Source of the DNA: Pseudoscleropodium purum
Taxonomy: Eukaryota; Streptophyta; Bryopsida; Hypnales; Brachytheciaceae
Length of the DNA: 64,000 bases
NCBI GenBank assembly: GCA_963969395.1
Contig: OZ017799.1
Span: 21,640,501 to 21,704,500, forward strand
Direction: 5' to 3'
Position 1 is the stretch's first letter. Each line of letters begins with the position of its first letter. Both the position numbers and the translations under genes were made by a program. Positions 3,169-53,628 of the stretch are shown here, piece by piece. The notes under the pieces were generated by a model. It was given only the letters and a program-made list of their open reading frames with translations, ran no database searches and had not been told where the DNA came from.

Positions 3169-3173
3169 AAGAA

Positions 3174-5729: not shown

Positions 5730-5740
5730 CACTACAAGAA
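5730..5740 (+). repeat. CACTA terminal inverted repeat (left)
   Basis: CACTACAAGAA is the canonical terminus of plant CACTA elements. It sits exactly where the gypsy reverse-transcriptase frame breaks. Confidence 0.85.
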
Positions 5741-11056: not shown

Positions 11057-11480
11057 ATGAATTCACAGCTTACTACAGTCCAATACGTCGCTACGAGGTA
11101 GGTCAAACAAAATACAAGAGTGCATGCTACCGTGAATGTCGACAAACTCTGGACTCCAAAGTCCATGCCTCAGAACGGGTTTAGGGTTTTGCTAGCCTTT
11201 GCAGCCTCCGTACGCCGCCATACAGCCGCCAAACGTGTGCAACGTGGCGGTTTTCTAGTACTCCACAACTTATTCAACTAGTTTATGCCCACTAAACTAA
11301 TGTATGACTCTACAATGACTCGAGCGCTACTAGAATAACAAACGTAGTCATACATGAGTAGTACGCTGCAACTGGAAGTCTACTATACAATGACTAGACT
11401 CGGCTTCCGAGACCAATTAATGTAACAGTTGAGCAAGAAACAAGAAAAGCAAACAGAAATTGCACAAGAACTCCAGTGCA
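11057..11480. other. Intergenic stretch of the CACTA element with AGTCAT words
   Basis: Noncoding; contains ATGACT/AGTCAT words near 11304, 11316, 11347 and 11390. Confidence 0.35.
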
Positions 11481-11502
11481 TGAAGAACAGAAGGCTGAGG
11501 AC

Positions 11503-11733
11503 TTACATTCTTTGGATGGCCACTTCCATAGGCTTTAGTTTTTGCCGTAAGAGTTGCACACGCTTGTCTCGTTCTAATTCGTAGGCAAACTTTCCCTCGT
11601 CTCCTGTTGCCATCTTCTCTTCCTCCATCTGCTTCTGAATTAGGTTAGTGAAATGCCCGTAGTGCCCAACAATAGTACTGTAGGGATTGACGTTCACAAG
11701 CAGCGCGTTACCAAGAAACAAGGGTATGCACAC
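11503..11733 (-). other. Charged, coiled-coil-like minus-strand frame, possible first exon
   Basis: The frame includes a strongly charged heptad-like stretch (NLIQKQMEEEKM, then YELERDKRVQLLRQKL). It is on the strand and side expected for the start of the TnpA-like gene. There is no domain evidence. Confidence 0.3.
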
Positions 11734-14612: not shown

Positions 14613-15040
14613 GTAATGTTGTCTTCAGACGTTGGTAATATGTGTCAAATTAAGTATTGAAGACTTTCTAGAGTTCAATTCTGATTTCCACAAACAAGTT
14701 AATGCAGTTTACTGATCTAGTGGCCTATTGTCAAACCACTTTAGATTGTCTGTCTATGGTATTGGCCTACAAACTATGCATATAAAGAACTTGTTAATTG
14801 AGGTGCCGATGTTCTAGTGTGGTGGTCGCAGACTACAAGTACAATAATGAGACAATAGGATAGGTGTTACTTAGTTGTGAGGTGGACAATAGTGACTTAG
14901 TAGTGACTCTCTTTCAACTATGTCTGTCCTACTAATTAGTCATTTCTTAGATGTGCCATAGTCATATAGTGAAATTATAGTTATTCATTGCTCCAGCACA
15001 GACAACAATTCACAATTGAATTCTTATACCGTCTCCTGAG
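14613..15040 (+). other. Intron 1 of the TnpD-like gene
   Basis: GT at 14613 and AG at 15040; joining the flanks leaves the Transposase_21 to DUF4218 junction (YWK then MQKLLIRYTLDVMH) in one frame. It contains AGTCAT words near 14938 and 14961, the same words as the element's subterminal region. Confidence 0.7.
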
Positions 15041-15948
15041 TGTATGCAAAAATTGCTTATTCGCTACACTTTGGATGTCATGCATTGCGAAATGAACTTG
15101 GCAAAGAACTTTTTGAAAACCATCACTGGGAAGAAAGACAGTGTGAAAGTAAAGCGGGACTTACAGAGGCGGAATATACGACCGCATTTGTGGCTAATTG
15201 CGCACCCGAGGAATCCAATGAAGATGGTGAAACCTGCAACACCATATGTATTGAGAGATGCAGAGCTTGAAGTATTCTTAACGTGCATTGAGTCTTTGAA
15301 GACACCAACAGGCTATTCCTCCGACTTGGGCAAGCACTTACGTAAGAAAAACTTTGGTGGACTGAAGTCTCATGATTATCATGTCTTAATGCAACAAATA
15401 TTACCATTGGCTTTGAGAGGTTTGATGGAACCAGGTCCCAGGATGGCTATCATGAGGATGAGTAAGGTTTTCAGAAGAATTTGTACTAAAGCATACAATC
15501 CCGCTGAATTCTCTTCCTTGGAAGCCGATGTGGCGGAGACCATGGCTTTGTTGGAGATGGAATTCCCACCGTCATTCTTTGACATAATGACACACCACCC
15601 ATATCATTTGGTTCAAGAGCTGGACTTATGTGGTCCAGTCAACGCAAGGTGGATGTACCCAATAGAACGGTACATGAAAACACTGAAAAATCATGTGAGG
15701 AATTTGGCTCGCCCTGAAGCATGTATGGCTGAGGGATACCTCAAAGATGAATGCATTGGATTTGTAACGGAGTACCTACAGAGCTTTCAGTTTACAGAGA
15801 GGCGTGTCTGGGATGCTGACGAAGAGTATGGCGATGCAGAGGAGGTGCTACTGGGCGGAGGAAGACCGTACATGATGACTCCTGCACTCCGGGATGTGGT
15901 ACATCAGTACGTTTTGGCCAATGTGTCTTGTTTGCAGTAATATTATTT

Positions 15949-18261: not shown

Positions 18262-19920
18262 CTACCCTACAACTCTAGATCCTATCGTCGGGCTTCCGGT
18301 CTCCGGGACTAGCTCCTCGAAAACTTCACTCAAATTCCGGACCCATTCCCCCTCCGCAGGATTCGGTCCGGGTGGAGACTCCAGGTCGATGGTGATATCC
18401 GGTCTCGTGCCCGGAGTCCCAGTCCGTGCAGACTTCTTGGACTCAGGAGTCCAATCCTTCCTGTCCTTCGCCATAGTTGCATCCGGAAAGAGGTCCGGTA
18501 GTGAGATGTCCGAAAGGTGAATACCTTTGTTGCACGTCGCTCCCGTCAGCTTCCGGCTGCTCTCCTCGATCCGGTCCGCTGCCTTCCGCCCCTCCACCAT
18601 TGCCGTCTCCACCTACTCGGCGAAGTCCGCGAGAATCCGGACCATCCGGGAACCGGATAGTTTCTTCTCTTCGTGGATCTTCTCGTCGAAGAGCTTTGCC
18701 TTGGCCGCTGCCGTTCCGGTCTCTCCCAGGACCGCCTTGATCTGCTCGGCCACCTTCCGAGTCTCCTCCGCCATCTCCCGAGCGGCCGTCACGTCTTCTT
18801 GATAGGCAAAAAGTGTTGCCTTCAGTTTATCTACCTCCTCCTGCAACCGGCGGATCTCGGCTTCTTGCTTCCGGGTCTCTTCTGGATTCGTGATGCATTG
18901 CGCCACTTGTTCCGCCAAGTTGCTGTCCGGTGCAGCACCCACCAACTTGCCGATTGCCGCAAGCGTCCTGTGCTTGACCTCCCAATCTGCCCTGATGTTG
19001 CAGAGGACGTTGATCAGACCGTTGAACGGATCTTGCATATCCGGATCTCCCCCGGAATTGGTCTTCTCGGCTTCCGGTTTCTCCTCCGGGGCCGGTTTGT
19101 CTTGACCGGGAGGCGTCCCGCGCTTGTGTGGAGGCGTCAGCTTCTGTCGCTTGATCGGCGGCATCGGCTCCTCCTCTTCCTCGCTGGACTCCCGGTCTGA
19201 CCCGGAATCGGATTCCGCCTCGTCATCCGTCTCCGACTCCCCATACTTCAGGAGCACTTCTTGCGTCTTCCACGCCCTCTCCTCCGTATCGGTGAGGACT
19301 TGGTTCTCCCGATAGAGGTGGAAGAGGTAAGGGCACACTGGAGTGGCCCTTTTCTTCCCAACCCTACTAACCAGCTGGGCCACGAGATCGGAAATGATCC
19401 GTGCCCAATCCACTTTCCGGGTACCACTGAGGGCACCGAAAATGGTGTTGTCGAGGGTGATCGTCACCCTGGTCGGCTTTTCCGGGTGAAGAACCGGAAC
19501 CAGGAATTGCAGGAGCCGACGGTGTCGGTCATCCAAGCAATCCTCGACCGCGTATCCGTCCTTCGGGTTGACGGCTCCCTTGAACTTCCCTCGGACAAAC
19601 TCATCCTTCCGGCTCGCCATTCCCAAACCTCCTGTCCGGAAACCGTAAACCGCTCTCCACATCCCCTCGTTCGAGCTGACGGGAGCTCCCCTCACGGTGT
19701 TGTCAAACTGGTTGGACAACTTTCCGAGGAGCTCCTTGACCATTCTCTCCTCCCTAAAACCCCAAGGTTTCTCGGCAAACCCTACGCAACCCATGGATCT
19801 GAGATCATCCATGAGTTCAGCCTTTTCCGGCTCTGTGGAGGGAATAACCGGAATGACTTTCCGGAGCTTCACCTCGCCTCCAGAGGGACTCGCTTGTCTC
19901 GACCTACGTAGCTGAGGCAT
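18262..19920 (-). pseudogene. Uncharacterised coiled-coil protein of the CCGG element, interrupted by one TAG
   Basis: From the ATG at 19920 (MPQLRRSRQAS) the frame is open for about 435 codons to a TAG at 18613-18615, then continues in the same frame for another 116 codons to 18262. The N-terminal two thirds looks globular, with FLVPVLHPEKPTRVTITLDN, TIFGALSG and CPYLFHLYRE. A very acidic linker (SSEEEEEP) follows, then a basic patch and a long coiled coil (EEVDKLKATLFAYQEDV, EETRKVAEQIKAVL). The same globular block occurs, decayed, at 24.87-25.6 kb, so it is a repeat-family protein. I do not recognise the family; retroelement gag-like or transposase accessory roles are both possible. The TAG could be CAG to TAG or a genuine stop with a decayed tail. 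Confidence 0.6.
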
Positions 19921-20103
19921 TCCCACTCACATCTACCTCACTCTCTCCTAGCCGCACGTCCCGTTCCTCACTTCCTCTCTCCGATCTCAACCGGAATCAA
20001 AATGAACAGAACGCAAACGCACAGACGCACAAACGACAAAAACTCAACCGCGCACGCTCAAGGTCGAGTTTCTAAAAGGGGGTGCAACAGTGAAAGCTCC
20101 TCC

Positions 20104-20110: not shown

Positions 20111-20384
20111 GTCCCTGGACCCTTTCCGGTTTGTCATCATGAATCCGGTTTACCATCATAATCCGGTTCATCATCATCATCCGGTCCTAGACCTAATCCG
20201 TGTTACATTCCGTTTCCGTCGTTAGTTACTCCTGACCGGATTAGATCCAAGAAGCCCACTACTTCACGTTCCGTGCTAATTCTGAGTTTTCCTTCCCCAC
20301 CTAATCGGATCCGGTTAGCTAATGACTAGTTTCCGTTCCTATTTAGGTGTATACTAAGAAAATCAAAATTCTAAGCTGCGACAC

Positions 20385-20807
20385 ATGACCACCTTAGCTT
20401 CTCAGCCAATGAAGTCTTTGTACACATTCACATCAACAGATGAGATGAAACAAACTTTGCAGAGGAGATGGTGGGTGGATCCACGTATTGCATATTTGCA
20501 TAAAGCAGGTGCAGATGTGGAAGTCATTCCAATGTATTCACGTAAGTCGGAAGAGTATGCCATTTGAAAAATTGCTCGGCGGATGAATGGAAACAACATG
20601 TCAGAGGCGTATTTCAACTTGCTACGAAAAACACCTAGTGCGACACAATTTGCCTTTCATGACTTTGCAAAAGTGTTTTATGCTTACTTGAAGCGCATTT
20701 CTTCGAAGACTGACGATGAAAATACTAGTTTGGCCCATGTTATTACGCGATTTTCTAATACATATCGTTGGCCAATGCTAGATGAACATTTCCGCCATTT
20801 ATATTAG
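20385..20807 (+). pseudogene. C-terminal part of hAT-borne protein kinase, copy A
   Basis: It encodes the segment after the DWG motif: an APE-like WVDPR, then a TGA at 20565-20567, then the last C-lobe helices (MNGNNMSEAYFNLLRK to DEHFRHLY). Sequence and the TGA are the same as in the copy at 31191-31613. The kinase core (glycine loop, Lys, catalytic loop) is absent here, cut off by the CCGG element. Confidence 0.75.
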
Positions 20808-21208
20808 ATTGATAGTGCAGAAGTAGTAGTTGAATAGGTTATATAGGCATTAAAAATTAGTTTAGAAATATAGAGTTGGAATGAAAAAAATTATATGTGC
20901 AATTAGCCAAATGTGCACAATGTATGGTATTCTACATTAAATTGAATACATTTTGCCCATATTGATTATGTTTGTATTTGTGTTGATCTTGATTTTTTAA
21001 ATAGTATATATATATATTTGAAGTCACAAATTTTTTTAGTTTGCCTTTTGAAAATGAATTGGAATTTTTTCATAGTTTCAAGACTATCATGGACTCGTGG
21101 TCAAACTTTATAATCTTTCAACTTATGAGAGACATTGTTTTAATAACAAATCGCGAACCATTGCACTTCATTTAACATTTAATTGTTTAAAGATTAAGGG
21201 AGTGACCG
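20808..21208. other. AT-rich noncoding part of hAT-like copy A
   Basis: No gene. A short (TA)n tract lies near 21004-21018. It is identical as read to 30790-31190 in inverse orientation. Confidence 0.6.
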
Positions 21209-21420
21209 CAGGGCAGTTTGGGTAGGGCGGTCGGGGGAAATAGGGCCGTCTGGGCGGACAGGGCAGACAGGGCAGACGGGCGGGGCGAACGGAGCGGATG
21301 GGCGGGGTGGACTAGGCGGACGGGCGGGGCAGACGGGGCGGTCTCGGCGGACGCTGCGCCCGCCGGGTCCGCGAATGTCAGCGGACACAGCGTCCGCGTC
21401 CGGACGTCGTGTCAACCCTG
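21209..21420. repeat. Terminal GGCGGAC array of hAT-like copy A
   Basis: About 210 bases of imperfect GGGCGGAC(A/G) words, ending in the terminal inverted repeat. It is about 65 bases longer than the corresponding terminus at 30644-30789 and differs at many bases, although the adjoining interior is identical. Confidence 0.75.
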
Positions 21421-21733
21421 CATGGCCTGCCGCCATCCGCACCCGATGGTACGCTTGTCGTACATCAAGTTTGGAAAATATAGTGGCCCCAACCAATCGG
21501 TCTGTTAACTCGGGAATCAATGGTAGCGGATACCTATTTCGGATTGTAACTCGATTGAGGTTGCGGTAGTCGATGCACACCCGAAGACTCCCATCTTTCT
21601 TTTTTGCAAAGACAATTGGGGTAGATACCGGGGATTTGGATCGTTGTATCCAGCCTTTACCTAGGTGCTCTTCTAGATACCGCCGTGAGGGTCTCTGCGT
21701 GGCCACCAATTTGCAGTTTAAACGTCGCCTCAT
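21421..21733 (-). pseudogene. Gypsy pol: N-terminal part of reverse transcriptase
   Basis: The minus-strand frame carries YLEEHLGKGWI, SPVSTPIVFAKKKDGSLR, CIDYRNLNRVTIRNRYPLP and FSKLDVRQAYHRVRMAAG, the fingers and first palm motif of gypsy reverse transcriptases, including the first catalytic Asp (LD). It stops dead at the hAT-like terminus at 21420. Its junction with the protease is also abnormal: the usual linker of roughly 100 codons is missing and the frame changes at about 21700. Confidence 0.9.
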
Positions 21734-22013
21734 GTGTAAGAAGTCCAGTGTTGATCACGCGTCCATCAATGACGCGCACCTCCCGGGGAACTGCTTTGGC
21801 GGTGATGGTGGCTCCGCTGGATGCAGCAAAAGTTGGGTGGACAAATATGCCAGTGGCTCCAGAGTCGACCATGAGGGTCGCCGAGTGGCCATTGACAAAA
21901 CCCACCAACGTCAAATGAGTACCGGGGTCAATGGTGGCGCGGAGATATAGCGGCTCTGCTACCGAAATTGGGGTGTCAAGTAGCGCCTGTTTGTAGTTTA
22001 TGGAATTCATCAT
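21657..22013 (-). pseudogene. Gypsy pol: aspartic protease
   Basis: The frame has TLMVDSGATGIFVHPTFA, the DSGA catalytic motif of retropepsins, with the usual flanking beta strands (LVGFVNGHSA before, GGHAETLTAV after). It lies in a different frame from gag, as expected if gag ends at the stop at 22046, though decay could also explain this. The C-terminal part of the protease is truncated by the internal deletion before reverse transcriptase. Confidence 0.8.
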
Positions 22014-24342: not shown

Positions 24343-24344
24343 AA

Positions 24345-24537
24345 TGTCAAGCAATGGCTAGAAAGTATACATTCCAAGACGAGGAACATGTGCATGTATT
24401 AAAGAGAATGTCCAGTGAGGGACAGAGCCCCCCCACTGGCCATTAAATAGGAAGAAGAGAGCAGTTGACAGTTGATTAAATTGTTAACTGTCTAACTACC
24501 CCTGATCCTATGCTTAGTTCGACGCCTAGTCCTAACA
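24345..24537 (-). repeat. 5' LTR of the gypsy element (193 bp)
   Basis: It starts and ends TGTTAGG...TTGACA on the minus strand. A TATTTAA box lies at 24443-24449. The likely transcription start, ACTGGACAT, is 33 bases further on at 24416, giving U3 of about 121 bases and R-U5 of about 72. Confidence 0.92.
24443..24449 (-). promoter_or_regulatory. TATA box in the gypsy LTR
   Basis: Minus-strand TATTTAA in the 5' LTR, conserved in the 3' LTR near 3271-3279. The A of ACTGGACAT lies 33 bases downstream. Confidence 0.6.
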
Positions 24538-27120: not shown

Positions 27121-27466
27121 ATGATTTTCAGGGTTGACAGGACGGTCGGACGTCTGGACGTGAACATTGTGTCCGCAGCATCCGCTGACATTCGCGGACG
27201 CCGTCGGCCCCGTTCGCCTGTCCCCCCCGTCCACCCCGTCCACCCCGATACCCGTCCGCCCCGGTACGGCCGTCCGGTCGACACGCGGACTGATCTAGTC
27301 CACATCATCTGGGTGTCCGCCTCGGGCCATCCGCCCCGCCCATCCGCCTTCCGACGGCGGGAGGGACGCTGCGTCCGTTGGCGTCCATGAGGACGGACGT
27401 CCGGACGTCCGGGTTACGGACGCCTTTTTCAAGCAGACGTAGAGATTCGTCAACCCTGATGATTTT
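27121..27466. mobile_element. hAT-like MITE 1 (330 bp) with 8-bp duplication ATGATTTT
   Basis: CAGGGTTGACAGG at 27129 and TTCGTCAACCCTG ending at 27458 are inverted termini. ATGATTTT occurs at 27121-27128 and 27459-27466. The interior is GC-rich GTCCGCC/GGCGGAC-type sequence with no gene. Eight-base duplications and CAGGG-type ends are features of the hAT superfamily. Confidence 0.93.
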
Positions 27467-28396: not shown

Positions 28397-28674
28397 CAAA
28401 AAATCAGGGTTGACAGGACGTCCGGACGCGGATGCTGTGTCCGCAGCGTCCGCCTGTCCCCCGTCCGCCCCGTCCGCCCGTCCGTCCGCCCGATTACGGC
28501 CGTCCGATCGACGTGCGGACTGATCTGGTCCACACGATCTGGGCGTCCGCCCCGTCCGTCCGCTTTCCGACGGCGGTCGGGACGCTGCGTCCTCTAGCGT
28601 CCGTGCATCCGGACATCCGAAAAACGGACGCTATTTTGGGGCGGACGTTGAAATTCGTCAACCCTGCAAAAAAT
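28397..28674. mobile_element. hAT-like MITE 2 (262 bp) with 8-bp duplication CAAAAAAT
   Basis: Element 28405-28666 starts CAGGGTTGACAGG and ends TTCGTCAACCCTG; CAAAAAAT flanks it at 28397-28404 and 28667-28674. Its right ~60 bases nearly match the right end of the 11.7-kb element (GGACGCTATTTTGGGGCGGA), so both are mobilised by the same machinery or share a recent ancestor. Confidence 0.94.
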
Positions 28675-30635: not shown

Positions 30636-30643
30636 ACTCAAAC

Positions 30644-30789
30644 CAGGGTTGACACGACGTCCAGACGCGGACGATGTGTCCGTAGCGTTCGCTCACATTC
30701 GCGGTCCCGACGGACGTAGCGTCCGCCGGGACCGCCCCGTCCGCCCAAACGGCCCTATTTCTCCCGACCGCCCTATCCAAACTGCCCCG
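30644..30789. repeat. Left terminal GGCGGAC array of the giant element
   Basis: Starts with the 10-base terminal repeat CAGGGTTGAC, followed by GTCCGCC/GGACCGCCC-type words. hAT transposases are known to bind subterminal repeats; the words here are the obvious candidates. Confidence 0.75.
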
Positions 30790-31190
30790 CGGTCACTCCC
30801 TTAATCTTTAAACAATTAAATGTTAAATGAAGTGCAATGGTTCGCGATTTGTTATTAAAACAATGTCTCTCATAAGTTGAAAGATTATAAAGTTTGACCA
30901 CGAGTCCATGATAGTCTTGAAACTATGAAAAAATTCCAATTCATTTTCAAAAGGCAAACTAAAAAAATTTGTGACTTCAAATATATATATATACTATTTA
31001 AAAAATCAAGATCAACACAAATACAAACATAATCAATATGGGCAAAATGTATTCAATTTAATGTAGAATACCATACATTGTGCACATTTGGCTAATTGCA
31101 CATATAATTTTTTTCATTCCAACTCTATATTTCTAAACTAATTTTTAATGCCTATATAACCTATTCAACTACTACTTCTGCACTATCAAT
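30790..31190. other. AT-rich noncoding part next to the left terminus
   Basis: Contains (AT)n near 30980-30994. Identical as read, in inverse orientation, to 20808-21208. Confidence 0.6.
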
Positions 31191-32684
31191 CTAATATAAA
31201 TGGCGGAAATGTTCATCTAGCATTGGCCAACGATATGTATTAGAAAATCGCGTAATAACATGGGCCAAACTAGTATTTTCATCGTCAGTCTTCGAAGAAA
31301 TGCGCTTCAAGTAAGCATAAAACACTTTTGCAAAGTCATGAAAGGCAAATTGTGTCGCACTAGGTGTTTTTCGTAGCAAGTTGAAATACGCCTCTGACAT
31401 GTTGTTTCCATTCATCCGCCGAGCAATTTTTCAAATGGCATACTCTTCCGACTTACGTGAATACATTGGAATGACTTCCACATCTGCACCTGCTTTATGC
31501 AAATATGCAATACGTGGATCCACCCACCATCTCCTCTGCAAAGTTTGTTTCATCTCATCTGTTGATGTGAATGTGTACAAAGACTTCATTGGCTGAGAAG
31601 CTAAGGTGGTCATGCCCCAATCGCAAACTCCAATATACACACGTGACTCATCCTCTGGAAAATGCAACAAAATGTTGTCCGGAGAAAGATCATTGTGCAA
31701 ATGTCCAGCAAGATGCACTGCATACATTATATGCATAAACGCCCATGTCAACTCCGTGCGCTTCTTCCGATATCGCCTTAAACGGTAAGCTTTTACAACC
31801 TCCTCTTCGGTTGGATTCATATACATCAAACGGATTTGAATGTTGTCTGGATAGTCCTTATCCATATTCAACATTTGTCGAAGAGTTCCACCATTCCACC
31901 AATACGCATAACCTTCACACGTCGTTCCGTGCACTGCAGCAAACCGTATCACACCCGCGTGTGGAATTCGAACAGCCATTGATTCGTTTTGATGTTCTAA
32001 CTTTGCAAGATCGGGTCGAGTTTGGTGGTGAATGGATTTCTTTGCCGCAAACTTCCAATGAGGAAGTATTCCTGGACATCCTTCAATACGAACCTTTCGA
32101 ATCGTTGCATATCCACCTCTCATCGTTCTATCATCAACAGCAATCACGCGTGCTGTATCTGGAAGTGCTATGAGGTGCCGTTTGGTCCTTTCCGCTTCAG
32201 CAACTCCATCATTGCTTTTCTACCAACCAATTGAACCAACTCGATTGTGCTTTTTGGCGAATGGAGCACATCGTCCCCTAAACAAGTCCGCTTTCAGAAT
32301 CACTTCTTCAAACTGGGCGTCATTGGGTTGATATTCCTTGCCATATTTAACCAAAATGACTTTGGAATTCCACAAAGCGTCATGAACCTTGTTCTCCAAA
32401 CATTTGGTGAAGTGCGTTTTATGCATTTCGTCATGCCACTTCGCCACATTCAATGCATCCAACAACATCTGTGTCATGTCTACCTTGAATTTAGACACGC
32501 ACTCCTCTTGATATCTGATGTACTTATTGTCTAAAGACAATGTTGTTTCCGATTCATAAAATTGAACGATGCGCTCGATCATGAATTTCTTGCATTCTTC
32601 CGAAGGACTTTGGCGAGCTATCTCCAAGTTCGATGGTCCCTCTCCATATTTTAGCTTCGCAACCTTCTTCTTCTCGTTCAGCAT
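31191..32684 (-). pseudogene. Transposon-borne protein kinase, two in-frame stops
   Basis: From the ATG at 32684 the minus strand stays in one frame to a stop at 31191, about 497 codons, apart from a TAG at 32220-32222 and a TGA at 31431-31433. The first ~155 residues are a charged helical N-terminal region with no known domain. The kinase fold follows: a glycine loop RGGYATIRKVRI, the ATP-binding Lys in FAAKK, the catalytic loop HNDLSPDNILL (usual HRDLKPxN), DWG in place of DFG, and an APE-like WVDPR. All residues needed for catalysis (Lys, loop Asp and Asn, DWG Asp) are kept, so the ancestor was probably active. The TGA lies inside the C-lobe and is shared with copy A, so the copies spread after the gene was broken. 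Confidence 0.75.
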
Positions 32685-32877
32685 CGTGACAAATGAAATT
32701 GATATAAATCAAATTTTTTAATTTGAAATTGAATTCACGCGCAAGTGTCCAAAAAATTGGCAACAAGGGGGCCCCAATAAACCACTCTTGCCTTGCCTCG
32801 GAAAGGAGCCATTGGAGGATGAACCACCAAGCTCTCCGCTCCACCTTGCATTCACAAGGGGCAAAGCAAAAGTGACA

Positions 32878-33180
32878 ATGCGGACGGCCCGTCCGCCCCA
32901 TCGGACGGCCCCAAACCGTCCGTCCGATCGGACGGGCCGGGGGTGGCGGACGCATCGGCTGTCCGCCTCCCCGAAACCCTCGAACCCCGTCCGCCCGATC
33001 GGACAGCCACGGGCGGACAAATCTGCCGTCCGCCCCATTGGACAGCCCCAAACCGTCCGCTTGATCGGACGGGCCGCGGCTGGCGGATGCATCAGCCGTC
33101 CGCCTCCCCGAAACCCTACAGACGCGTCCGCCCGATCGGACGGCCACGGGCGGACAAATCAAGCGTCCGCCCGATCCGAT
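32878..33180. promoter_or_regulatory. GGCGGAC array upstream of the kinase gene
   Basis: Dense GTCCGCC/GGCGGAC and CGGACGGCC words, arranged as two copies of a ~137-bp unit (the word GTCCGCCCCA recurs at 32891 and 33028). It starts about 195 bases upstream of the kinase ATG at 32684. Open frames through it consist of Arg/Pro/Ser/Asp repeats and are not genes. Confidence 0.65.
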
Positions 33181-33774
33181 TTATTTTTCATATTTGAAAA
33201 TAGAATCTAAAGAAGAACCACTAATTGTCTAATTTGGGCATTTCTTCATACGAATAAGAAATCATTTTAGTTTTTAGCAATCATTGAATGAAAAATAAAA
33301 AAATTTCAAATATTCAAATAACTTAATCTTTCATAAATTAATTAGAAATACATTTATATCATTTACGAGTTTCTAAATGTAATAAACACACAACAATAAT
33401 TTCAAAATACACACCATGCTAGTACATATTTAACCTCGAATGCTAAATTCAAAAATAGACATAATATGGCTCTTACAAAATTACATTTCTTCTTCATATT
33501 TTTATTATTTATCAAAGTCGCTTATAGCCGTATACATCAACGCTATTATAAAATAATACAATGATGTCTTCAACAATATACTTGCCTACATACATACTTG
33601 GTGTACACTATTACACAACACTTTTTGAAAAAGTGAACAAAATTGTTGTTCAAAATTGTTCTATTCATTTAAAATTTTGTACTACTTCTATCAATCTAGT
33701 GCTCTATACTTGTCGTGAGAGTAAAAATGAGAAAATCGAGTAAACACATGCTCACTATATACTTGCATGTTTTT
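33181..33774. other. AT-rich spacer inside the giant element
   Basis: No gene. It holds the 3' flank of the Gly-rich protein gene to its right. Confidence 0.45.
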
Positions 33775-35037
33775 TTATTCGGAATCTGAATCGGACTCAA
33801 ATTGTTGACCGCTGCCTCTTCTTTGTACTCCAATGAACGGACCACCTCCGTAGTTTCCGTGATATCCACTCGGTGCACCTCCTTGTCCATAATTTGAACC
33901 TCCAAAAGTGGGAGGAGGAACCGGAGTAGTAGGCTCTGATCCTCTTTCATTTGAAGCCCCGTAATAAGAGGCCCCATGATGCCCATATGAATCACTTCTA
34001 GTTGATCCCGGATAGTATTGGGCGCTTCTGTGAAGAGAGCAACTATACTGCGGGGTTACATAGCTTCCTCCACTACCTTCGGAGCCCACTTGAGTGAGCG
34101 TCGTATAATATGAACCAGATTCAGTAGGCCTACCATAGTGCGTGTTGCCATAGCTACCTATCCCACCTAGAGAGCCAATTTCAGGGAGAGTACCATAACG
34201 AGAACCAACTGCACTTGAACCACCATAATGTGTGGATCCATAGCTCCCTCTTCCACCTTCATATCTATTTTGAGGATCGTAACCAAAGTATGAACCACCT
34301 CTTCCATGTTCAGATTCTCGCGTTCCATGTTCATGTCCGTAGGACCCACCATGCCTATCTTGCCGTCCACGATCTTGAAGGCTTCTGCGTGTTGCCTCTT
34401 GCATTTGTTGTTCGAATTCAATTCGTTCTCGTTCTTCTATCCGCTCGTGTCTAACTCCAAATGTGACAGGCGCTTGCATATCATCGTCATCATCGTCATC
34501 TGTCCACGCATCTTCAGCATCTCGTAGAACAACTGAAGGTTGTTGTAGATAACCTCGATTAGACCACTCTGGCATGCAATCGCTTGCGCCCCTCCACTGT
34601 GTATCTATAACGGCATCCGTGCGCGTATAGTTCTCCACATTGCGACCTATAGCGGTACACCAGTCCACATCCTTGTGAAGTACAATCTCTGCCCAAACCA
34701 TTGCCATAACATTATAATTCATTATATTTGGTTTGGCGCTTTTAATGCTAAGAACTCGATGCACTTGTGTGTATCGTTGTTTGAAGTGCTCACTTTGGCA
34801 CGTAGACATTTGTCCTTCCCAACGTGGCGCTTGGTGCTTTACACGTTCACGTCGCCAAAGTTTTTGAATGTGAGTCATTTTCACATACTTCTTGCACATT
34901 GAGCAATCCCACACTCTTGTTGGTTCTTCTTCCCATCCCGGTTCACCCACGCACAATGGATCGGCCCAAGCATCCCAATTGAACAATTGGGGTCTTCCCT
35001 TTCGACTACTTTTTTTGGATGTTCTATCTTTCGGCAT
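33775..35037 (-). CDS. Transposon-borne Cys/His-domain, Gly/Ser/Tyr-rich protein (unknown function)
   Basis: An intact frame of about 420 codons; MPKDRTSKKSSRKGRPQ at 35037 is preferred as start over the Met ten codons upstream because it opens the basic N-terminus. Residues ~15-130 form a domain with GWEEEPTRVWDCSMCKKYVK, a following HIQKLW, then C and HF, and MNYNVMAMVWAEIVLH. The same pattern occurs in the plus-strand protein at 38488. A run of seven Asp follows, then a charged helix (ERIEERERIEFEQQMQEA), then ~190 residues of Gly/Ser/Tyr-rich low complexity (GGSYG, THYGG repeats), and an acidic end. The Cys/His spacing suggests zinc binding and perhaps DNA contact; this is inference. It is the only large intact gene in the element. 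Confidence 0.7.
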   Translation of the reverse strand: MPKDRTSKKSSRKGRPQLFNWDAWADPLCVGEPGWEEEPTRVWDCSMCKKYVKMTHIQKLWRRERVKHQAPRWEGQMSTCQSEHFKQRYTQVHRVLSIKSAKPNIMNYNVMAMVWAEIVLHKDVDWCTAIGRNVENYTRTDAVIDTQWRGASDCMPEWSNRGYLQQPSVVLRDAEDAWTDDDDDDDMQAPVTFGVRHERIEERERIEFEQQMQEATRRSLQDRGRQDRHGGSYGHEHGTRESEHGRGGSYFGYDPQNRYEGGRGSYGSTHYGGSSAVGSRYGTLPEIGSLGGIGSYGNTHYGRPTESGSYYTTLTQVGSEGSGGSYVTPQYSCSLHRSAQYYPGSTRSDSYGHHGASYYGASNERGSEPTTPVPPPTFGGSNYGQGGAPSGYHGNYGGGPFIGVQRRGSGQQFESDSDSE

Positions 35038-35220
35038 GATGAAGCTGAAGCAAAGAGAATGAAACAATTAGAAAGCTTAAGAACCAAAATTTTGATTTAA
35101 CTAATTAATTAAAATTTTACAAGCGTGAACTTTGTGAAAATTTGTAACAATCTCACAACAATCATTCACTCAAAGCGGAAGGGGCGCACAGAGCTTCCAA
35201 TGCACTGGTCCGCCCACTCC

Positions 35221-35570
35221 AAAAGAGAACGATTGTTCAGAATGAGCCGTCCGCCTCCCCATATATATATGCGGACGCCCCAAGGCGGACGTCCAGATCA
35301 TGCGGACCACATCAGTCCGCATGTCAATCGGACGGCCGTAACCAGGCGGACGGGTATCGGGGCGGACAGGGCGGTCGGGCGGTCAGGGCGGACGCGGAAT
35401 CGGGCGGACTGGGCGGACGGAGGACGGGGCGGACGGGGCGGTCGGGCCGGACAAGGGGGACTCCGGATCGGGCGAACAGGGCGGACGGATATCACGGCAG
35501 ACGGGGTGGACAGGGCGGACAAGGCGGACGCCGAATCGGGCGGACAGGGCGGACGGCTCATCTTAAACCC
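35221..35570. promoter_or_regulatory. GGCGGAC array upstream of the Gly-rich protein gene
   Basis: More than fifteen GGGCGGAC/GGCGGACG words in about 300 bases, mostly in one orientation, starting about 190-210 bases upstream of the ATG at 35037. A TATATATAT tract lies within it at about 35262-35270. Plus- and minus-strand open frames across it (35125-35616 and 35298-35819) are repeat artefacts. Confidence 0.65.
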
Positions 35571-35615
35571 TAAACCTAATGAAGGAAATTGTTCTTTTTT
35601 CAAAATCTCACGGTA

Positions 35616-35820
35616 GAGATGTTTAACCCGTAAAGTTCTTTTCACTAAAAACACTTCAAAACTGCCAATAGTAGTGCAAATATCAAGTCTTAAAAGAAAA
35701 ATACTTTGGGGCATATGTAACCGTAGCATCTTGTAGTAAATTAGTTGGAAAAAATGTGGAAAAAATTTTAGACAAATCCACCATTTGGATTGTAAGATAT
35801 TAGATATTGAATGTTTCATT
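35616..35820. repeat. Dispersed repeat, copy 1 (partner at 46590-46815)
   Basis: Shared words in order with the partner: TAAAGTTC, CTCAAAAC(T/A)GCCA, CATAT-TAA-C-TAG-ATC-TGTAGTA, GAAAAAATGTG(G)AAAAAA, and GATTG(T/C)AAGATATTAG. Divergence is high. One copy is inside the giant hAT-like element, the other outside. Confidence 0.55.
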
Positions 35821-36026
35821 TAAGGGGCTACTCAATTATGTCTATTAATGAACAATTGGTAGGCTAACAAACCTAACTTAGCATGTATTTTAATATTTGT
35901 TGCAATTATTTTAGGAATATTATAACATAACACTATTATAACATTCTTATAAATGATATAATACTAAATCATTTCAAAATCAACAACATTCGAACACAAT
36001 CTATCAATCTTGTCTTTCATACTCGT

Positions 36027-36030
36027 TTAA

Positions 36031-36069
<39 letters not shown>
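36027..36069. repeat. (TA)n microsatellite
   Basis: About 21 uninterrupted TA units followed by ACATACATA. Confidence 0.9.
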
Positions 36070-36073
<4 letters not shown>

Positions 36074-37993
36074 CATAAAATATATTAGATAAATCAACAT
36101 GAACAAATCAATGATTATATATTTCATAGATCTATTCTTCATCAATCAAATAAGAGTGCATGTGCAAATATAGACAAAGATGGTTTCTCCATTTGTTGCC
36201 AAAAAATAGATAAACAAATAGAGAAAGATATGAAGTGAATGTTACTTAGAGAATTGAAAAGAAAAAAATTGAAGTACTCAATTGCATTTTATTAAATTGG
36301 AAAATTGCATGTGGATGACATGAATTAATCTTCATAGATGCTAAACTTATACGAGTTGCATTTCAACATTTATGATTTATGCAATTGATTGAATTGAAAG
36401 CTCTTGTAATTACATTTTCAAATTTTCGATTCAATCATTCAAATTTGTAAGAGTGATTTATGATAGATTTATAACTTTAAATGTGAAAGCATTCAATGCC
36501 TTTATGCGTTTGTTCATCAATATATTAATTTTAGATAAATAATATATATTTTTTATAACATATGCATAAACCATTACATTAAAAAAAAAAAAAACTAAGA
36601 GCCAAGCCAAATAGGCTGGTCAAATGAAGAGAACAAGATAATAAGAGCCCTACGAGACAGAAAACAAAGGAAAAAAAGGAAAATATCAAAAGGATTCAAA
36701 GGAAGAAACAAGATGCATTCTTGCAAGACCGTAGAATACATAATGATTTCAAAATCCAAACACAAATATATTTTCTATTTCAATGAGAGCCAAAAATGAA
36801 CTACCTTGCTCTCAAAGATTGTACAATGTACACGTTATACAAAACGAACATATAACAGAAAGAGTAGAAGACATCGTTTATCATGATTGAAAATTGAAAT
36901 GATTTTTTTTTTCTATGTAGAATATTTTATGAAATGTAACAATGTATTTAATTATCATAGTAATTGGTAGAAATCTTTGTGCAATACATAGAAACATTTC
37001 ATTCATGTGGAGTTTTTTTCATTTATTTAGGATTAAAATTGAAGTATTATACTCTACAAAGTACAAACCAAAAACAATACCATATACCTAAGTTCAAAAG
37101 TTTGCAATTGTTTCGTGAATTCATTTTGAAAATTCAAACAAAGAAATATTTTATAATCAATATCTTGTTCATTTGAATCATTTCAAAAATCGAATTCCGA
37201 ATTCAATTCCTATTTATAATAGAAATTATATTTGTCAATTTTTTAGATCTTTAAACAATGAACCCTCTTTTTTAAAATTAATATTTAAAAACATCTTAAA
37301 TAAGAATATTGGAATCACCCTTCAAAATAAATATAGCACATGTATAAGTGTATAATGTATTCTACTCCACCAACTCAAGTAACGAATTTTTCTATGTTTT
37401 TAAGAAAAAATATAGCCATACATGATTTGAAAGTTAAAACATTGTTTCTTTTTCTTTGTTTTCAAATCTAATCAAAATTTCATTACAAAATATGAAAGAC
37501 TCGATGTTCATTTGAAGATCGTGATGCACTTTTAATGAGAAATCACAACCTTTCATTAAATATCATGAGGTTGAAATCCATTTAACTGTTATTCTAATTA
37601 TGTATTGGAGCCTTTTTTTAAAATTTCATTTGCTTACAATGAAAATGGAATTGATTATTTTTGCAAAACATTTGATTTCCTAATGAACTTTAAAAAAATC
37701 CCCACCATCTTCAGATCTTCTCAAAACCTATTTAGAGGAATAATATCAGTAACTAATTCAAACATATTCAACTTAACCACATTCCCCTCATTCGTAAAAC
37801 AATTTAGGGGAGAAAAGAAAAGGTTTAGGGTAATTAGGGTATAAGGTTTAGGGTTTACATTTAGAAAAAAAAAAATGATAAACCAATTACATTGATCTTC
37901 ATTTAGCAGTGATTATTAGGCTGTTTTATTTTTGAAATGTTACCGCTCTTTTTGAATAATAATGGCCTCATAGGATGCACCAATTGACAACTG

Positions 37994-38275
37994 GGCGGAC
38001 GCCGTCGGCGGTCAGTGTTTAAGTGGGGCGGTCGGCGTGTCCAAAGCGCGGACGGCGTCGGAAGGCGGACAGTGCGGACAGTCCGGGCGGACGCGCCGGT
38101 CGGATGGGTGGTCGGACGGGGCGGTCGGACGGGGCGACGAGCGGACAGCACATCCGCTGCCGAAGCGGACGTCGTCAGTCCGCGCGGCGGACGCGAGGTT
38201 CAGGGCCGCTTCGCGCGGTCCAGGGCAGGTCCGGTGGCGGACGGCCTCTAGATCCGGCAGCGGACGGCTATAAGG
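37994..38275. promoter_or_regulatory. GGCGGAC array upstream of the coiled-coil/RING-like gene
   Basis: GGGCGGACG, GGCGGACAG and GGCGGTCGGACGGGG words fill about 280 bases, ending about 215 bases before the ATG at 38488. A TATAAGGG word follows the array at about 38269. The overlapping open frames at 37903-38415 on both strands are repeat artefacts. Confidence 0.65.
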
Positions 38276-38487
38276 GTGGAGTGACTTTTCATTTCTTCTC
38301 ACTTCAATTCTCCTTCGGTGCCAAGTTGGATGTGCTACTATTGCTTTATGTGCTAGTTGCTCCTATGGGGTGGAGAGTTGGGGTCCTCTATCTTGTGTTA
38401 CTATGTTGCGGTTGATGCCATCACTTTTGACTATCACGTGAGATTTTTTTATTCACTTCAATTGGTTATTGAATCCATTTGACAATC

Positions 38488-41400
38488 ATGAACGGCGAAG
38501 GTGATCGAAATATGGATGGGGTGACTCCGGGAAGCGAAGCCAAGAAAAAGAGCAAAGTGAAGGGGGCTACGTACGACCTTCGGCTTGACATTTTAAATGA
38601 CCCTACAATTAAAGCAGAGAGCGGGTGGGAAGATGAAGATGTGGAGTATTGGACATTAAAAATGTGCAGGACCTATGTTAAAATGTACCACATTGACAAG
38701 TTGTGGCCTCAGGAGTCGCACAGGAGTCATACACGGGATTTTTGTTGTAAACCATGGACTTGCAACAACAAACATTTTGTCCATCGATCTGAGGAGGTGT
38801 GGCGTGTTCTATTCGGAAACAAGCGCAGAAGTAAAGGCTATATTAATTATAGCGTGGCGTGTATGGTTTACGCGGAACTTATATTAGAGCACAAGATCGA
38901 TTGGAGCACGTTTCCGACGACAACAGCTTGCCCACTTCTACTTGAAGCCAATCAAAAGGACATTCCCAACTTGTACAATTCAGAGGGAGAAACAGAAAAA
39001 GTATTAAAAAATATTATTGAGGTGAAAACGGATGGTGTGGAGAAAGCCTCAAATGTTGAAGAATTACGGTCTGTACAATCTCCAACAAAAGCAATCAATG
39101 AAAGCTCTTCGAAAAATGTGGGGAAAGATGTGGAGAAATATGTAGAGGCGCAGGAGGGTAAAGTCTTTTCCACAGCTCCAACGCGTTTGACCTTTACACC
39201 AAATGTTGCGGCACAAACGCAAACGGAGTTTGTAAATAAAGGCAAGGTTTGCACGGAACGCGGGAAAACTTCAAAAAGTAAAGTAGACGAAGTCTTGGCG
39301 GAGAAAGTGGCAAAGGCTAATGCTACAATTGATAGTTTGATAGCCAACAATTGTTTTGATAGTTTGGTCTACAAATCTCCGCCTGTGCATGAAGGCGTTG
39401 AATATAGTCCAGCGTTAAGTTTAGAAGACAAAGTACATACGCCTCGTGGACAAGGCGTGACGATTGATAATATATCCTCATTATGGAGTTCCGAGCGTAA
39501 AAGGCGGGCGAAGGAGTTTCCAATTACAACGGCATTGCCAAGTCCTCTACATCGAACCTTGCAAGACATGTCCAATCCAAAACAATTGGAAAATCTTTTG
39601 AAGCTCTCGGTTCAGTGTGCTAACCTTCATGAAGAAATGGCGGATCGTCGAACCCCGATGATGGTGCTACTGCTGTTCCAATGAGTCCACTTGCAGATCC
39701 AAAGAATGTTGGACATATACTTGATACAGCTTTCAAGATGACGATGTCAGCTGAATTTTTAGCGCAAGTTGCTCCGACTTTTATGAATTTGGCCAAGGAG
39801 TTTTCTTTCATGGCACCAGAGATGTTGAAAGCTGCTATAGCATTTCAGAATCTCACGAAGACTTTCGGACCACTTTTCGAAGAAAGAAATGTTCACATAC
39901 TACAATTGGTGGAATATGAGAAGAAAATTGCTGACCTTGGAGGAGTGGAAGCAAGGTGCAAAGTGTTGGAGTTGAAATTAAAGACTTTGGAGAATGAGGT
40001 TGAACATTTAAATCAACAATCATCGAGACAAATGGAGGAGTTGATGAAGATGCGTAAACAAATTGCAGAATTGCATGGGACCTCCAAGAATCCAAGTGAG
40101 GTTGCAATCTCACCAGTGATTGTACTCGGAGATAGTCAAGAGACTCAAGAGAGTGAAGATAAGCTCTCTCTTCCTTTTGATAAGGCCGAAGCAAGCGACA
40201 ACCCTGCCATTGTGAATGTACAAGAAAGTCACGATATGAGCATGTTAAAAGCGACACAACAACCATCAATGGAAAAGCTTTCATCCGTTTACGTGAATGC
40301 GGAGACGCAAACGGAGAGTTGTGACTTTGAAGAGTTGTGACTTTGAAGAGTTGAAGCATAAATTGGAAGAGGCAATTGAAGCAAAAGGAATCGTTGAATC
40401 CAAGTTGAATCGATTGCAATTGTGCTTGGATTTGAAGAAGTTTATGCCATCTAGCGGCTTGGAGTCTCGATGGTTAGCATGGGTACAAAGACTCCAAGAC
40501 AGACCCTCTGTAGTATCTCGAGCAATGGCAGGTCTTCAAACATTGGCAATGGAGTCGAATGAAAATTGCGATGCCATTCAAAGCTCTTTGAGTTGGTTCA
40601 AGACTATGTTTGACCAACATCCTTCAAAGGGATATACGGAGATCACATGTTGGGGAGACATGGATGCCATGTTTGAGCGGTTAAACCACACAAAGAAGGA
40701 CCAAGCTCCACCCATCAATTCGGCCTTGGAAGTAGAGGAAGGATGGGTCCCTTACAAACCACTTTCAGCACACATCAATGTGAAAGACAAGCGAGTGGTG
40801 CATGCTTGTGATCCAGCCTCTCCAATCTTGGATGGTTGTTGTAGCCTTTGCCAAGGCCTCTTCGGACCGGAAGGTGCGGTAACCATAGGCCAATGTCGCC
40901 ACACTTTCCATGTCACTTACATTGTGAAAGCATCACTCATTCGTTCGGTGTGTGTCGAGTGTCGTAGTCCATTGAGTGCTAGGTTCTACGAAATGTTTGG
41001 TATCTTGGAAACTATGCCTCCAGGCCACGAGTACAATCGTTGGAATCTTCCTCTTGATCAAGCGCCGTACAAATTTCAAAATTATCAACATTGGGGGAAG
41101 CCAATCCGGTGGAATGCAAATGAACAGAGGCATGATTTGTACGAGAAATCTGAGCAACCATTGGATTTGGATGTGTGGATGACTCACAATAGAGAGTTGG
41201 AATTGCGGGCTCGAGGAATCGTAGATGACACGGCCCGTGAAATGTTTTGTCACAACATGGAGGGACATTGGAGCTTGCAACACAAAAAGTTCTTTCGTTT
41301 TCTAGATAAAAAAGTGGAGAGAGGACCAGAAAACAGTTGGGTGGAGGTGAACCATGGAAAAGAGTTCGATAAGCAGTATAAGGCATACGACCACACCCTC

Positions 41401-41901
41401 GTAGGTAGGGCCCTTCTATTGTCAAAGTTGGAAGAGGCTGCAAAAGTTCGTGCTGTCTACAATACAAATGGACTAACAAGCACAGGACATTCATCTGTAG
41501 ATGTAGCAGCAGCATTTGATAGGCGCATTGGCGATATTATAGGGCATTGGAAGGCTTTCCTATTGGATGGAGACTGCCTTACAGTATGGCAAGGGAAAGG
41601 AGATGATGAAGTTGTTCAAGCGATGGTAGATCGTGTGGAGAGCAACTTGAGAACCTTGAAGGCAGACGAAGTCGATTTATCACCGAAAAGAAAACAAAAA
41701 AGGAAGCGTGAAGAGGACGATGACTTCTCTCCGGAAACCAAGAAACAATTTCATAAGGTGGACATCGAAGTTCAATCTGGAGGGCGAATAGTCCGTCCAA
41801 GTCAACAACGGTCAACTCGTCAATCATCTGCTAAACTCCTCGGTACAACAGATTTTCCTTTTGTTTTGGGAGAAGGTAGTGGTCCATCCGGTGGAAAGTA
41901 G
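38488..41901 (+). pseudogene. Transposon-borne large protein: Cys/His domain, coiled coil, RING-like finger; two frameshifts
   Basis: Three frames make one gene. Part 1 (38488-39684, MNGEGDRNMDG) starts with the domain shared with 33775-35037: SGWEDEDVEYWTLKMCRTYV, KMYHIDKLW, C-x-x-HF, GYINYSVACMVYAELILEHK. A frameshift near 39650-39680 leads to part 2 (39681-40340), mainly coiled coil (RCKVLELKLKTLENEVEHLN). A perfect 16-base tandem duplication (40319-40334, 40335-40350) causes the second shift into part 3 (to 41901). Part 3 carries a RING-like motif: CSLC, then QCRHTFH, then CVEC; the Cys usually following the second His is missing. It ends in a basic KRKQKRKREE signal and a low-complexity tail. 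Size, coiled coil and nuclear signal would fit a DNA-binding element protein; no transposase catalytic motif is recognised. Confidence 0.65.
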
Positions 41902-42195
41902 GATTTGAGGAGAATTTTGTTTTTTAAAAACAATGGTCCTTTCATTGTTTAAAAACAGAAAAGAATGTGAAAGATTTAGATCTTAAAAAGATCGTATAGG
42001 ATTCAATAGTGATATTGGAACTATGTTTTCATGTATTTTGTTTATACATATATATTTATATATAAAGATGCTATATTTTCATTTGCGTATAAAAATATTT
42101 TTATATGTACATCTTATTTTACGTGGATGCATTCATTTGTGATTGTGTAACATTCAAATTACATAACAATATAAAATTTTCTAATGACTAATGGC
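41902..42195. other. 3' flank of the large gene
   Basis: AT-rich, no gene; contains TATATATTTATATATAAA near 42048-42066. Confidence 0.4.
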
Positions 42196-42387
42196 AATGC
42201 GAAGTCCGTCCCGTCCGTCCGCCCCATCTGGTCTGTACGCCCGACCACCCCGGCCGTCCGCCTCACCCGTCTGCCCCGCCCCGCACGTCCGCCTTCCGAC
42301 GGCGGGAAGGACGCTGCGTCCGCTAGCGTCCGGACATCCGGAAAACGGACGCTATTTTGGGGCGGACGTTGAAATTCGTCAACCCTG
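42196..42387. repeat. Right terminal GGCGGAC array of the giant element
   Basis: GTCCGCC-type words ending in ACGGACGCTATTTTGGGGCG and CGTCAACCCTG, nearly the same as the right end of MITE 2. Confidence 0.8.
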
Positions 42388-42395
42388 ACTCAAAC

Positions 42396-47824: not shown

Positions 47825-48090
47825 AATATAAAATACAAATACTGAATACAAATACGAATATGGGTACGGATATTGGATATGAGTACTAAATACATATACT
47901 GAATACGGATATTGAATATGGATACTGAATATGGGTATTGGATATGCGCACTGAATACGTGTATTGAATACGGATATTGAATACGGGTACTGAATATGGG
48001 TACTGGATATGTGTACTGAATATGGGTACTAAATACGGATATTGAATATGGGTATTGAATATGGGTACTGAATATGGATACAATATTGGA
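47825..48090. repeat. Minisatellite of a 12-base word (GAATATGGGTACT-like)
   Basis: About twenty imperfect copies of [T/A]AC-TGAATA(C/T)GG(G/A)TA. The minus-strand open frame 47886-48122 (Tyr/Ile/Ser/Pro repeats) is created by the repeat. Confidence 0.85.
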
Positions 48091-48143
48091 TACGGGATCA
48101 ATTGTCCCATATTATTTGTCAAGAACTTTTATTCTGAAGATTA

Positions 48144-51748: not shown

Positions 51749-51990
51749 CTTAAATTTAAGGTTGACAAATTGGAACGTTCACTCCAAATTTATGTCCCTA
51801 ATCTAGATGTTCGGACGCATGGACTCCAGCAGATGTATAGGGGTAAAACAATCGTCTGCAAAAATTACTTAAGGTAAAATTGATGGACGATGGCTTAACA
51901 AACAACTTGGTGGATGGCTTCGCAAACACAAATTGGGCGGACGGTAGTTGCATGGACGCCCATTCCAAACTAGTAGAAAACTTATTACAT

Positions 51991-52740
51991 CATTTGCCGC
52001 TTCAATTTTTTGAGTTTTCAAGCATACAATATAACATTGGAAAGGTCTCGGAAATACCTTTTCAATGGTATATTACATGTTCCCAAACTCCAAAAACTGA
52101 GATCGCAAATGAAGAAAAAGGTAACAACCAATGCATTTTGAAGGTCAAAGTAGTTGTCCACCTAGCCATCCGCTTGGCGGACGGGTAGATGGCTGAGTGG
52201 ACAGCTTGGCGGACAACCTCATGAAAGGCCAAAAAAGTTCATTTGTCATTTGCGACCTCAATTTTTGGAATTTGGAGGCATATAATATACCATTGGAAAG
52301 GTCTAGGAAATAACTTTTAAATGGTATATTACATGCTCCAAAACCCCAAAACTGAGATTGCAAATGACAAAAAAGGTAACAGTCAATGTATTTTGAACGT
52401 CAGAGCAATTGTCTATCCAACCACCCACCCAACTGTTTGTATAGTGGATGAGCGGAGAGGTGGATGGTTGAGCCTCAAATCAAAAATTGTATGCACTAGA
52501 AATGTATATTTTGTATCTGCCCGTCCACTTATTGACAAAGTCAACTACTTCGCAAATGGGCGGACAATTGGGTGGACGGGAGGACGCGCTCATAAAGGAA
52601 TTCAAAACTTCATTTGGCATTTGTGACCTCAATTTTTGGAATTTGAAGGCATATAATATACCATTGAAGAGGACTTGGAAATACCTTTTCAACAATATAT
52701 TAAACGCCTCCAAAACTCTAAAATTTTAAAACAGAAAATG
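51991..52740. repeat. Three-copy tandem repeat inside the ancient hAT-like element
   Basis: CATTTG-CG(A/C)C-TCAATTTTT(T/G)G followed by GGCATATAATATACCATTG recurs at 51991, 52247 and 52618. Spacing is 256 and about 371, the second enlarged by GGCGGAC-type sequence. Open frames at 51880-52729 on both strands are produced by it. Confidence 0.7.
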
Positions 52741-52959
52741 ACAAATGAAGCCAGCTACAAGTGCATAGTGAACTTCTGCCCTGTTGTTTGCTTGATTGTC
52801 CCTCATTTATTAAAACATTGAATTCTAGAAAGTATGGATTTGCTTTCTAGACTTTATTTAATACTACATATATTCAATGTATGATATATCATGCTTGTAT
52901 GAATATGTAATTCATATAAATTTCTACACATTTGAAATTGCAAATTCTATACCCTAAAC

Positions 52960-52985
52960 CCTAACTCTAACCCTAAACCCTAATG
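52960..52985. repeat. Interstitial telomere-like motif
   Basis: CCCTAAACCCTAACTC followed by TAACCCTAAACCCTAA: about four CCCTAAA-type units, the plant telomere repeat. Too short for a chromosome end. Confidence 0.6.
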
Positions 52986-53628
52986 TTAAATTTTACATTG
53001 CTTATAAAATTTTTAAAAATATTGATGCAACGTGTGGAATATGCTTGATCTTCAATTATGTTTACATGAGATTATTAGAAAGTACTACATATGTAGATCT
53101 CAATGACTTATTTTTTGATGTTTTGAATTGATTTTGGTTTTTTTCTTCATCAATTCATCTATTATTTTGTTGAAATTGTATAAATTTAGAATATGCAACT
53201 ATAATCTAAAGTATTCATTTAAGTTTGTTCAAAAATGTATTGAAAGTTTAAAACATCAAGCTATGCATAGTATAAGCAATTGATGAAATAAATTTTTTGG
53301 CTTGTTTAGAATGGGCGTCTGCTCGATTGCCGTCTGCCCATTCGCCTTCCGCCAAGTTGTCGGCCAACTGTCCGCCCATGTACCATCCGCTAGATGACTG
53401 TCCACCATGTTGTGACCATCAGATCAAATGGATGGTGCATTATTAGCTTAATTGGACGGTTGTAACATGGTAGTTGGCCAAATAGCGGACAGCTCAACGG
53501 ATGCGATCGGGGCAAACGACGTTGCGGACGCAAATTTACCTTATGGTAAATTTTAAAATTAACAAATGTCAACGGACGTTGCGGACCCATCGTTCATGTC
53601 TGAATGTCTTATCAACCTTGCTTAAATT

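Follow-up and report, generated by a model that had tools for sequence, protein, structure and literature searches.

The window, by which we mean the whole stretch of 64,000 nucleotides that was analysed, contains a transposon, here called C, which carries three genes, each preceded by a GC-rich array (Table 1). The initial annotation had claimed its termini and the flanking ACTCAAAC duplication, and both are present exactly at the positions given. The three genes are likewise borne out, with the kinase and Gly-rich genes on the reverse strand and the RING gene on the forward strand. The short terminal inverted repeats, a hAT trait, are an exact 10 bp both in C and in a sister element, E, which is described below. 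At no more than one mismatch, CAGGGTTGAC is found at 13 places in the window, where 100 shuffles give an expectation of 2.99 (largest count 7). When six frames of C were scanned with Pfam, no known transposase domain was found in them, and C itself does not encode a hAT transposase; it is therefore filed as a non-autonomous derivative. The earlier statement that the element has no known transposase thus holds for copy C and fails for its family, in which sister copies carry a hAT transposase.

Table 1. Element C, its parts and its relatives in the window (positions from the first nucleotide of the window).
Feature	Positions	Strand	Remarks
Transposase-less hAT element C	30644..42387	+	11,744 bp; placed by termini, 8-bp duplication and fetched copies
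Left target-site duplication ACTCAAAC of C	30636..30643		exact
Right target-site duplication ACTCAAAC of C	42388..42395		exact
Left terminal inverted repeat CAGGGTTGAC of C	30644..30653	+	exact, 10 bp
Right terminal inverted repeat GTCAACCCTG of C	42378..42387	-	exact, 10 bp
Left subterminal GC-rich array	30650..30790		GTCCGCC motifs
Kinase gene	31191..32684	-	single 497-aa frame; in C, stops at codons 154 and 417
GC-rich array upstream of kinase gene	32880..33165		
Gly-rich protein gene	33775..35037	-	420 aa, single frame, open in C
GC-rich array upstream of Gly-rich gene	35240..35565		short relatives hold a similar stretch
GC-rich array upstream of RING gene	37990..38262		E and L054 diverge from C at about 38083
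Coiled-coil RING protein gene	38488..41901	+	about 1,132 aa; three overlapping frames in C
Right subterminal GC-rich array	42195..42365		RING-hAT form diverges from C at about 42220
Short relative A	27129..27458	+	330 bp; own perfect 8-bp duplication ATGATTTT; same ends as C
Short relative B	28405..28666	+	262 bp; own perfect 8-bp duplication CAAAAAAT; same ends as C
Partial sister copy D	20384..21420	-	left end and part of kinase gene; breaks off at 20384

The kinase and RING genes of C are broken and its Gly-rich gene is open. The kinase frame is open in three of the 21 copies that cover it (L023, L038 and L039; D lies outside the coverage). Its relatives comprise at least 69 proteins at E <= 1, with a best identity of 81% over 55% of the query, and identity is 70% over the entire query. 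In an 18-row alignment, the His, Asn and Gly columns of the catalytic HxD...N and DxG motifs are invariant, and both Asp columns are at least 90% conserved. Of these open copies, L039 alone has the full four kinase motif strings sought; L038 is without one and L023 without two. The kinase fragment of C falls under the Pfam cut-off, and the relatives P0077, P0079 and P0086 lie over it. In prokaryote genomes one weak kinase match was seen, on a small contig labelled as a Clostridia MAG (L053:2450-2617; 38% identity, query residues 140-186), where it is possibly foreign DNA in that assembly.

The Gly-rich frame is open in C, L022 and L026, that is, in three of the 20 copies covered (D and L024 lie outside the coverage); in L040 it has no stop but carries a one-base length change. 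The RING gene is open in none of the seven copies covered (15 rows, D included, lie outside the coverage), and a stop-free frame of 1,137 aa was met in one of 81 genome matches. The relative P0008 is continuous over both frame changes of C, and indel counts suggest that most of the covered copies differ from C at these points. As to the zinc ligands of the RING finger, one RING Cys is Tyr in C, which falls under the Pfam RING cut-offs, and the relatives P0013 and P0019 are above them. Among the matches listed, 17 relatives at E <= 1 belong to the RING half and seven to the N-terminal part of the RING protein. With a profile of the RING half, the best 60 of 134 solved-structure matches are mostly RING domains. 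The Gly-rich and RING proteins have an N-terminal domain in common, with 19 invariant columns in 10 rows and 34% identity over a 142-residue piece. Predicted structures are poor, the mean pLDDT being 53.5 for the C-terminal half of the RING protein and 57.4 for the shared N-terminal domain, and a fold search with the model of this domain gave no match at E <= 0.001. Values of pN/pS in the family (0.49-0.71) had been considered as a sign of purifying selection; since wrong frames and antisense gave 0.40-0.79, nothing is inferred from them.

Three relatives of C lie in the window itself. The two short ones consist of the left end, a stretch resembling the array of the Gly-rich gene and the right end. 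The partial copy D agrees with C at 99.4% of the 881 bases aligned; it adjoins a Ty3-type reverse-transcriptase frame. An extension of D, as an element, to position 6265 was considered and dropped, because the flanks TTCAATAC and CATGGCCT are unlike each other and no right end is matched there.

The genome searched comprises 313 Mb in 52 contigs. With a 200-bp left-end query, for which the best 40 of 2,104 candidates were scored, there are at least 56 matches. Twenty left-end copies besides C were fetched (10 kb each), with right ends or following stretches for 12 of them. The aligned parts of all 20 correspond to C with 95-97% identity; several bear later insertions, and L037 departs from the layout of C at the RING gene. 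The right end stands at the position expected from C in 11 of the 20, six of them gap-free and five with an unread gap before it. Thus, the left and right termini at 30644 and 42387 belong to one element and not to two. In the 12 copies other than C that were read at both ends, the 3′ part of the RING gene goes straight to the right end, with no hAT cassette between (in L027, L029, L033, L038 and L039 the stretch before the right end is unread). Perfect 8-bp duplications flank seven of these 12 transposase-less copies (L030, L032, L033, L034, L035, L038 and L039), three more match at seven of eight positions (L023, L026 and L029), and the flanks of two, L027 and L031, do not match; independent duplications, on which the proposal of a transposon depended, are thus found in other copies. 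L035 is an internal-deletion copy of 7.5 kb. A 301-bp relative nested in L021 has duplicated CTTATAAA, and the same site is empty in C, so that the duplication is seen directly; a second nested relative, in L038, has duplicated CGCACAAT with one change. L022, L025, L036 and L040 all contain an LTR-like insert (about 3.3 kb, TGTCGCA ends), and a similar end abuts the cut-off of D (window near 20385).

Where, then, is the transposase? The genome was searched for the hAT dimerisation domain (150 hits scored of 664 candidates), and two domain hits near known left ends were picked by eye from their coordinates and then read. L054 lies within another copy, from which the nearby left end comes. Read from element position 6372 on, L054 matches C as far as 7440 (window position 38083, in a GC-rich array); the match resumes for the last 150 bp, and a hAT ORF occupies the interval. 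This ORF, of 1,154 aa, matches Pfam DUF659 (PF04937, 1.9e-28) and Dimer_Tnp_hAT (PF05699, 5.6e-9), both above cut-off, and against solved structures it has no sequence match at E <= 1. L055, like L054, matches C as far as 7440 and then in the final 112 bp. Together with L056 it forms E, an element of 9,775 bp that was read from its left end and has a perfect 8-bp duplication, TAGTTGAG. E has a kinase region without a full-length frame, has lost the Gly-rich gene, has no RING gene and holds the hAT gene in a frame-broken state. L037, also read from its left end, carries kinase, Gly-rich and hAT genes, the last matching the hAT ORF; its flanks, GATGAAGA and CTTTTGAA, show no matching duplication. 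In L054, E and L037 alike, the hAT ORF stands in the place of the RING gene of C. A further arrangement is found in L021 and L047, where the 3′ flank of the RING gene (C 11460-11577, 95%) leads into a hAT array and the hAT N-terminus. L021 was read to C position 9618, the 1.8 kb before the RING-hAT junction being unread, and the flanks of its presumed right end have no matching duplication. At least 40 near-full copies of the hAT ORF exist (best 40 of 1,407 candidates), of which five, the query included, are without internal stops.

Members of the family with the same ends therefore contain a hAT transposase, by Pfam in L054 and by a matching ORF in E and L037. The proposal that C is hAT-like is supported because such a transposase is present in a sister that shares its ends and its kinase end with C and has a perfect 8-bp duplication. 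The alternatives offered at first were a very large non-autonomous carrier, which is supported for copy C, and a new lineage in which one of the unknown proteins would be the transposase, which is not supported: in the sisters a separate hAT gene lies beside the kinase, Gly-rich or RING genes, and this gene is missing from C. A new superfamily with an unknown transposase was dropped once the hAT-bearing sisters had been found.

By raw count, the motif GGCGGAC/GTCCGCC appears 35 times in C (11.7 kb) and 10 times in the part of the window used for comparison (48.6 kb), and in C the arrays lie inside both ends and upstream of every gene. Indels among copies number 57-197 per 300 bp in the arrays and 0-5 in most gene windows, the frame changes of C itself aside; AT-repeat stretches are likewise variable. 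All the changes of form that were read, namely the fused arrays of E and the breaks at 38083 and 42220, are located in arrays, and we infer that cassettes are lost by recombination between them. A cluster of the same motif also lies outside C, at 51936-53370, partly in diverged repeats.

The arrangement of the genes across the genome was assessed from pairs of matches; because best matches only were used, the pair counts are lower bounds and are not convertible to frequencies. The kinase was scored 146 times (best of 1,351 candidates). The best 40 hAT ORFs form at least 13 pairs with an upstream kinase on the opposite strand within 16 kb, against a chance expectation of about 0.3 by our own arithmetic, and none with a kinase on the same strand or downstream. 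Eleven of the 13 have the spacing of E, 4.0-4.4 kb, the others being at 5.6 and 7.6 kb. The 150 hAT domain hits give at least 25 upstream opposite-strand kinase pairs, none on the same strand and two downstream; the 21 best-scoring domain hits take part in none of these pairs and may represent another hAT family. For kinase and RING there are at least 18 pairs with the kinase upstream in the expected orientation, none in the other orientation and one downstream, and 13 of the 18 are spaced at 7.9-8.3 kb (8,078 in C). Among the matches listed, at least eight left ends pair with RING, no left end pairs with hAT in the expected orientation (one does so downstream) and there are no RING-hAT pairs. 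Of the 40 places scored for the 601-bp RING-hAT junction of L021 (best 40 of 914 candidates), 27, L021 included, contain it whole (query 1-596 or more), four have both parts in split form and nine have the hAT side only. A hAT dimerisation domain follows 1.7-2.0 kb further on at six or more of the 27, and a kinase lies upstream at one or more. At the 26 whole junctions besides L021, it is the 3′ flank of the RING gene that is seen and not the gene itself.

From these observations we propose, with high confidence, that C is a non-autonomous hAT derivative, that the full form of the family likely has four genes in about 16 kb, and that C was probably moved in trans. The likely full-length element, its size estimated from positions in L021, would have the gene order kinase, Gly-rich, RING, hAT. 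Each gene would be one long frame preceded by a GC-rich array, and the kinase and Gly-rich genes would lie on the strand opposite to that of RING and hAT. This complete form is pieced together from several copies, none of which was read end to end with all four genes. C would be this element minus the hAT cassette, its right end attached at about 42220 to the array behind the RING gene. C retains both transposon ends, and it would most likely have been moved by the hAT transposase of its sisters, through cut-and-paste transposition with an 8-bp staggered cut. The left-half tree joins E with L037 (support 0.92) and puts L021 and C in one weakly supported part. The spacer tree unites E, L037 and L054 (0.96); the RING-type L039 joins them (0.99) and C lies elsewhere. 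No direct four-gene parent of C was identified by these two trees.

It may be, though we lean somewhat away from it, that a two-gene kinase-hAT element was the original and that the RING and Gly-rich cassettes were acquired later by exchange between GC-rich arrays. The prevalence of the short E-type spacing among the kinase-hAT pairs agrees with this, as does the location within arrays of the cassette junctions that were read; so does the excess of kinase over RING relatives among the matches listed (69 against 17), although the queries, and the number of matches that could be listed, were unlike. On the other hand, RING-hAT junctions are common (27 of the 40 scored), the frequencies are not comparable since they come from best matches only, the Gly-rich and RING proteins have a domain in common, and RING relatives occur in other sources. 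From their repeated presence, and from relatives in other sources, the kinase, Gly-rich and RING genes are apparently resident, and possibly such companion genes tune the transposase or counter host control. It is tempting to go further, and we do so tentatively, as a conjecture somewhat less likely than not: the family could be a hAT lineage with its own set for post-translational control, made up of a kinase, a ubiquitin ligase of the RING type and a Gly-rich protein with the same N-terminal domain as the RING protein. Each gene would be driven by an array of the subterminal motif, the set would regulate the transposase or disarm host silencing, and copies of the C type would be satellites that keep the helpers and have shed the transposase.

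Two other origins for C itself are much less probable than its descent from a hAT element. C and 11 copies of the same layout have spread with no known transposase domain in C, and relatives of its kinase and RING are present elsewhere, so that one of its three proteins, the RING protein being the likeliest, might be the transposase of a new lineage and the hAT-bearing relatives might be recombinants. We consider this very unlikely, given that the same ends co-occur with a hAT transposase and a perfect 8-bp duplication, that the structural matches of the RING half are to RING domains for the most part, and that E does without a RING gene. Kinases and RING proteins are also common in giant viruses and virus-like elements, and the presence of both in C could bring to mind a fragment of an endogenous virus-like element or giant virus. 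Pattern-based scans found no relative of the kinase or of the RING half in IMG/VR, and a viral origin is scarcely credible in view of the transposon ends, the 8-bp duplications and the hAT transposase of the sisters. The derivation of C from a hAT element by loss of the transposase gene is the reading that we retain.

Compared with known systems, the family is closest to the hAT superfamily, of which Ac/Ds and Tip100 are types. It has the 8-bp duplication, short inverted ends that start with CAGGG and subterminal repeats; its sister copies contain a transposase with DUF659 and hAT dimerisation domains, and both deletion derivatives and short relatives occur in it. hAT elements usually have a single transposase gene; this family differs in its added kinase, Gly-rich and RING genes, in the array that accompanies each gene, in a likely length of about 16 kb and in having a member, C, without the transposase. 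Multi-gene transposons of plants, such as Mutator-like elements with additional genes, resemble it in having companion genes beside the transposase and gene-bearing non-autonomous derivatives. Mutator duplications, however, are usually 9 bp and the ends often long, whereas here an 8-bp duplication goes with 10-bp inverted ends and another type of transposase. Duplications of 8 bp have been reported for the KDZ/Zisupton group as well, but Pfam assigns the sisters' transposase to hAT, and no model named for a KDZ-type transposase was matched in the six scanned frames of C or in the hAT ORF.

C is accordingly not a new superfamily; its peculiarity is that the genes for a kinase and a RING-type protein are apparently resident in a hAT element. 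In the titles and abstract openings that were listed, no hAT element with kinase and RING genes was named, a statement about those parts of the literature that makes no claim of absence from print. A repeated family in which kinase, RING and Gly-rich genes are resident would stand out among hAT elements for its companion genes, and its cassette layout, with one motif array at both ends and upstream of the genes, would offer a setting in which to follow how transposons gain and lose genes. There is also a caution in it: where an element has no known transposase, a single deletion may be all that separates it from an ordinary family.

Other features of the window are as follows. Pieces of a CACTA-type transposase (Transposase_21 and DUF4218) lie on the forward strand at 13596-15940; a CACTA transposase with DUF4218 points to plants, and by this sign the host is plant-like. 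A long direct repeat in two copies (3172-3376 and 24343-24537; 93-98%) flanks Ty3-type pieces, and between the copies are integrase and RNase H (3817-5862), a reverse-transcriptase-like frame (21194-21754) and much nested DNA. On the reverse strand, a 437-aa frame at 18613-19926 has no Pfam match at E <= 0.01, and a 476-aa frame at 7284-8714 contains an NLI-interacting-factor-like phosphatase domain. A tandem array with a 13-bp period occupies 47852-48100.
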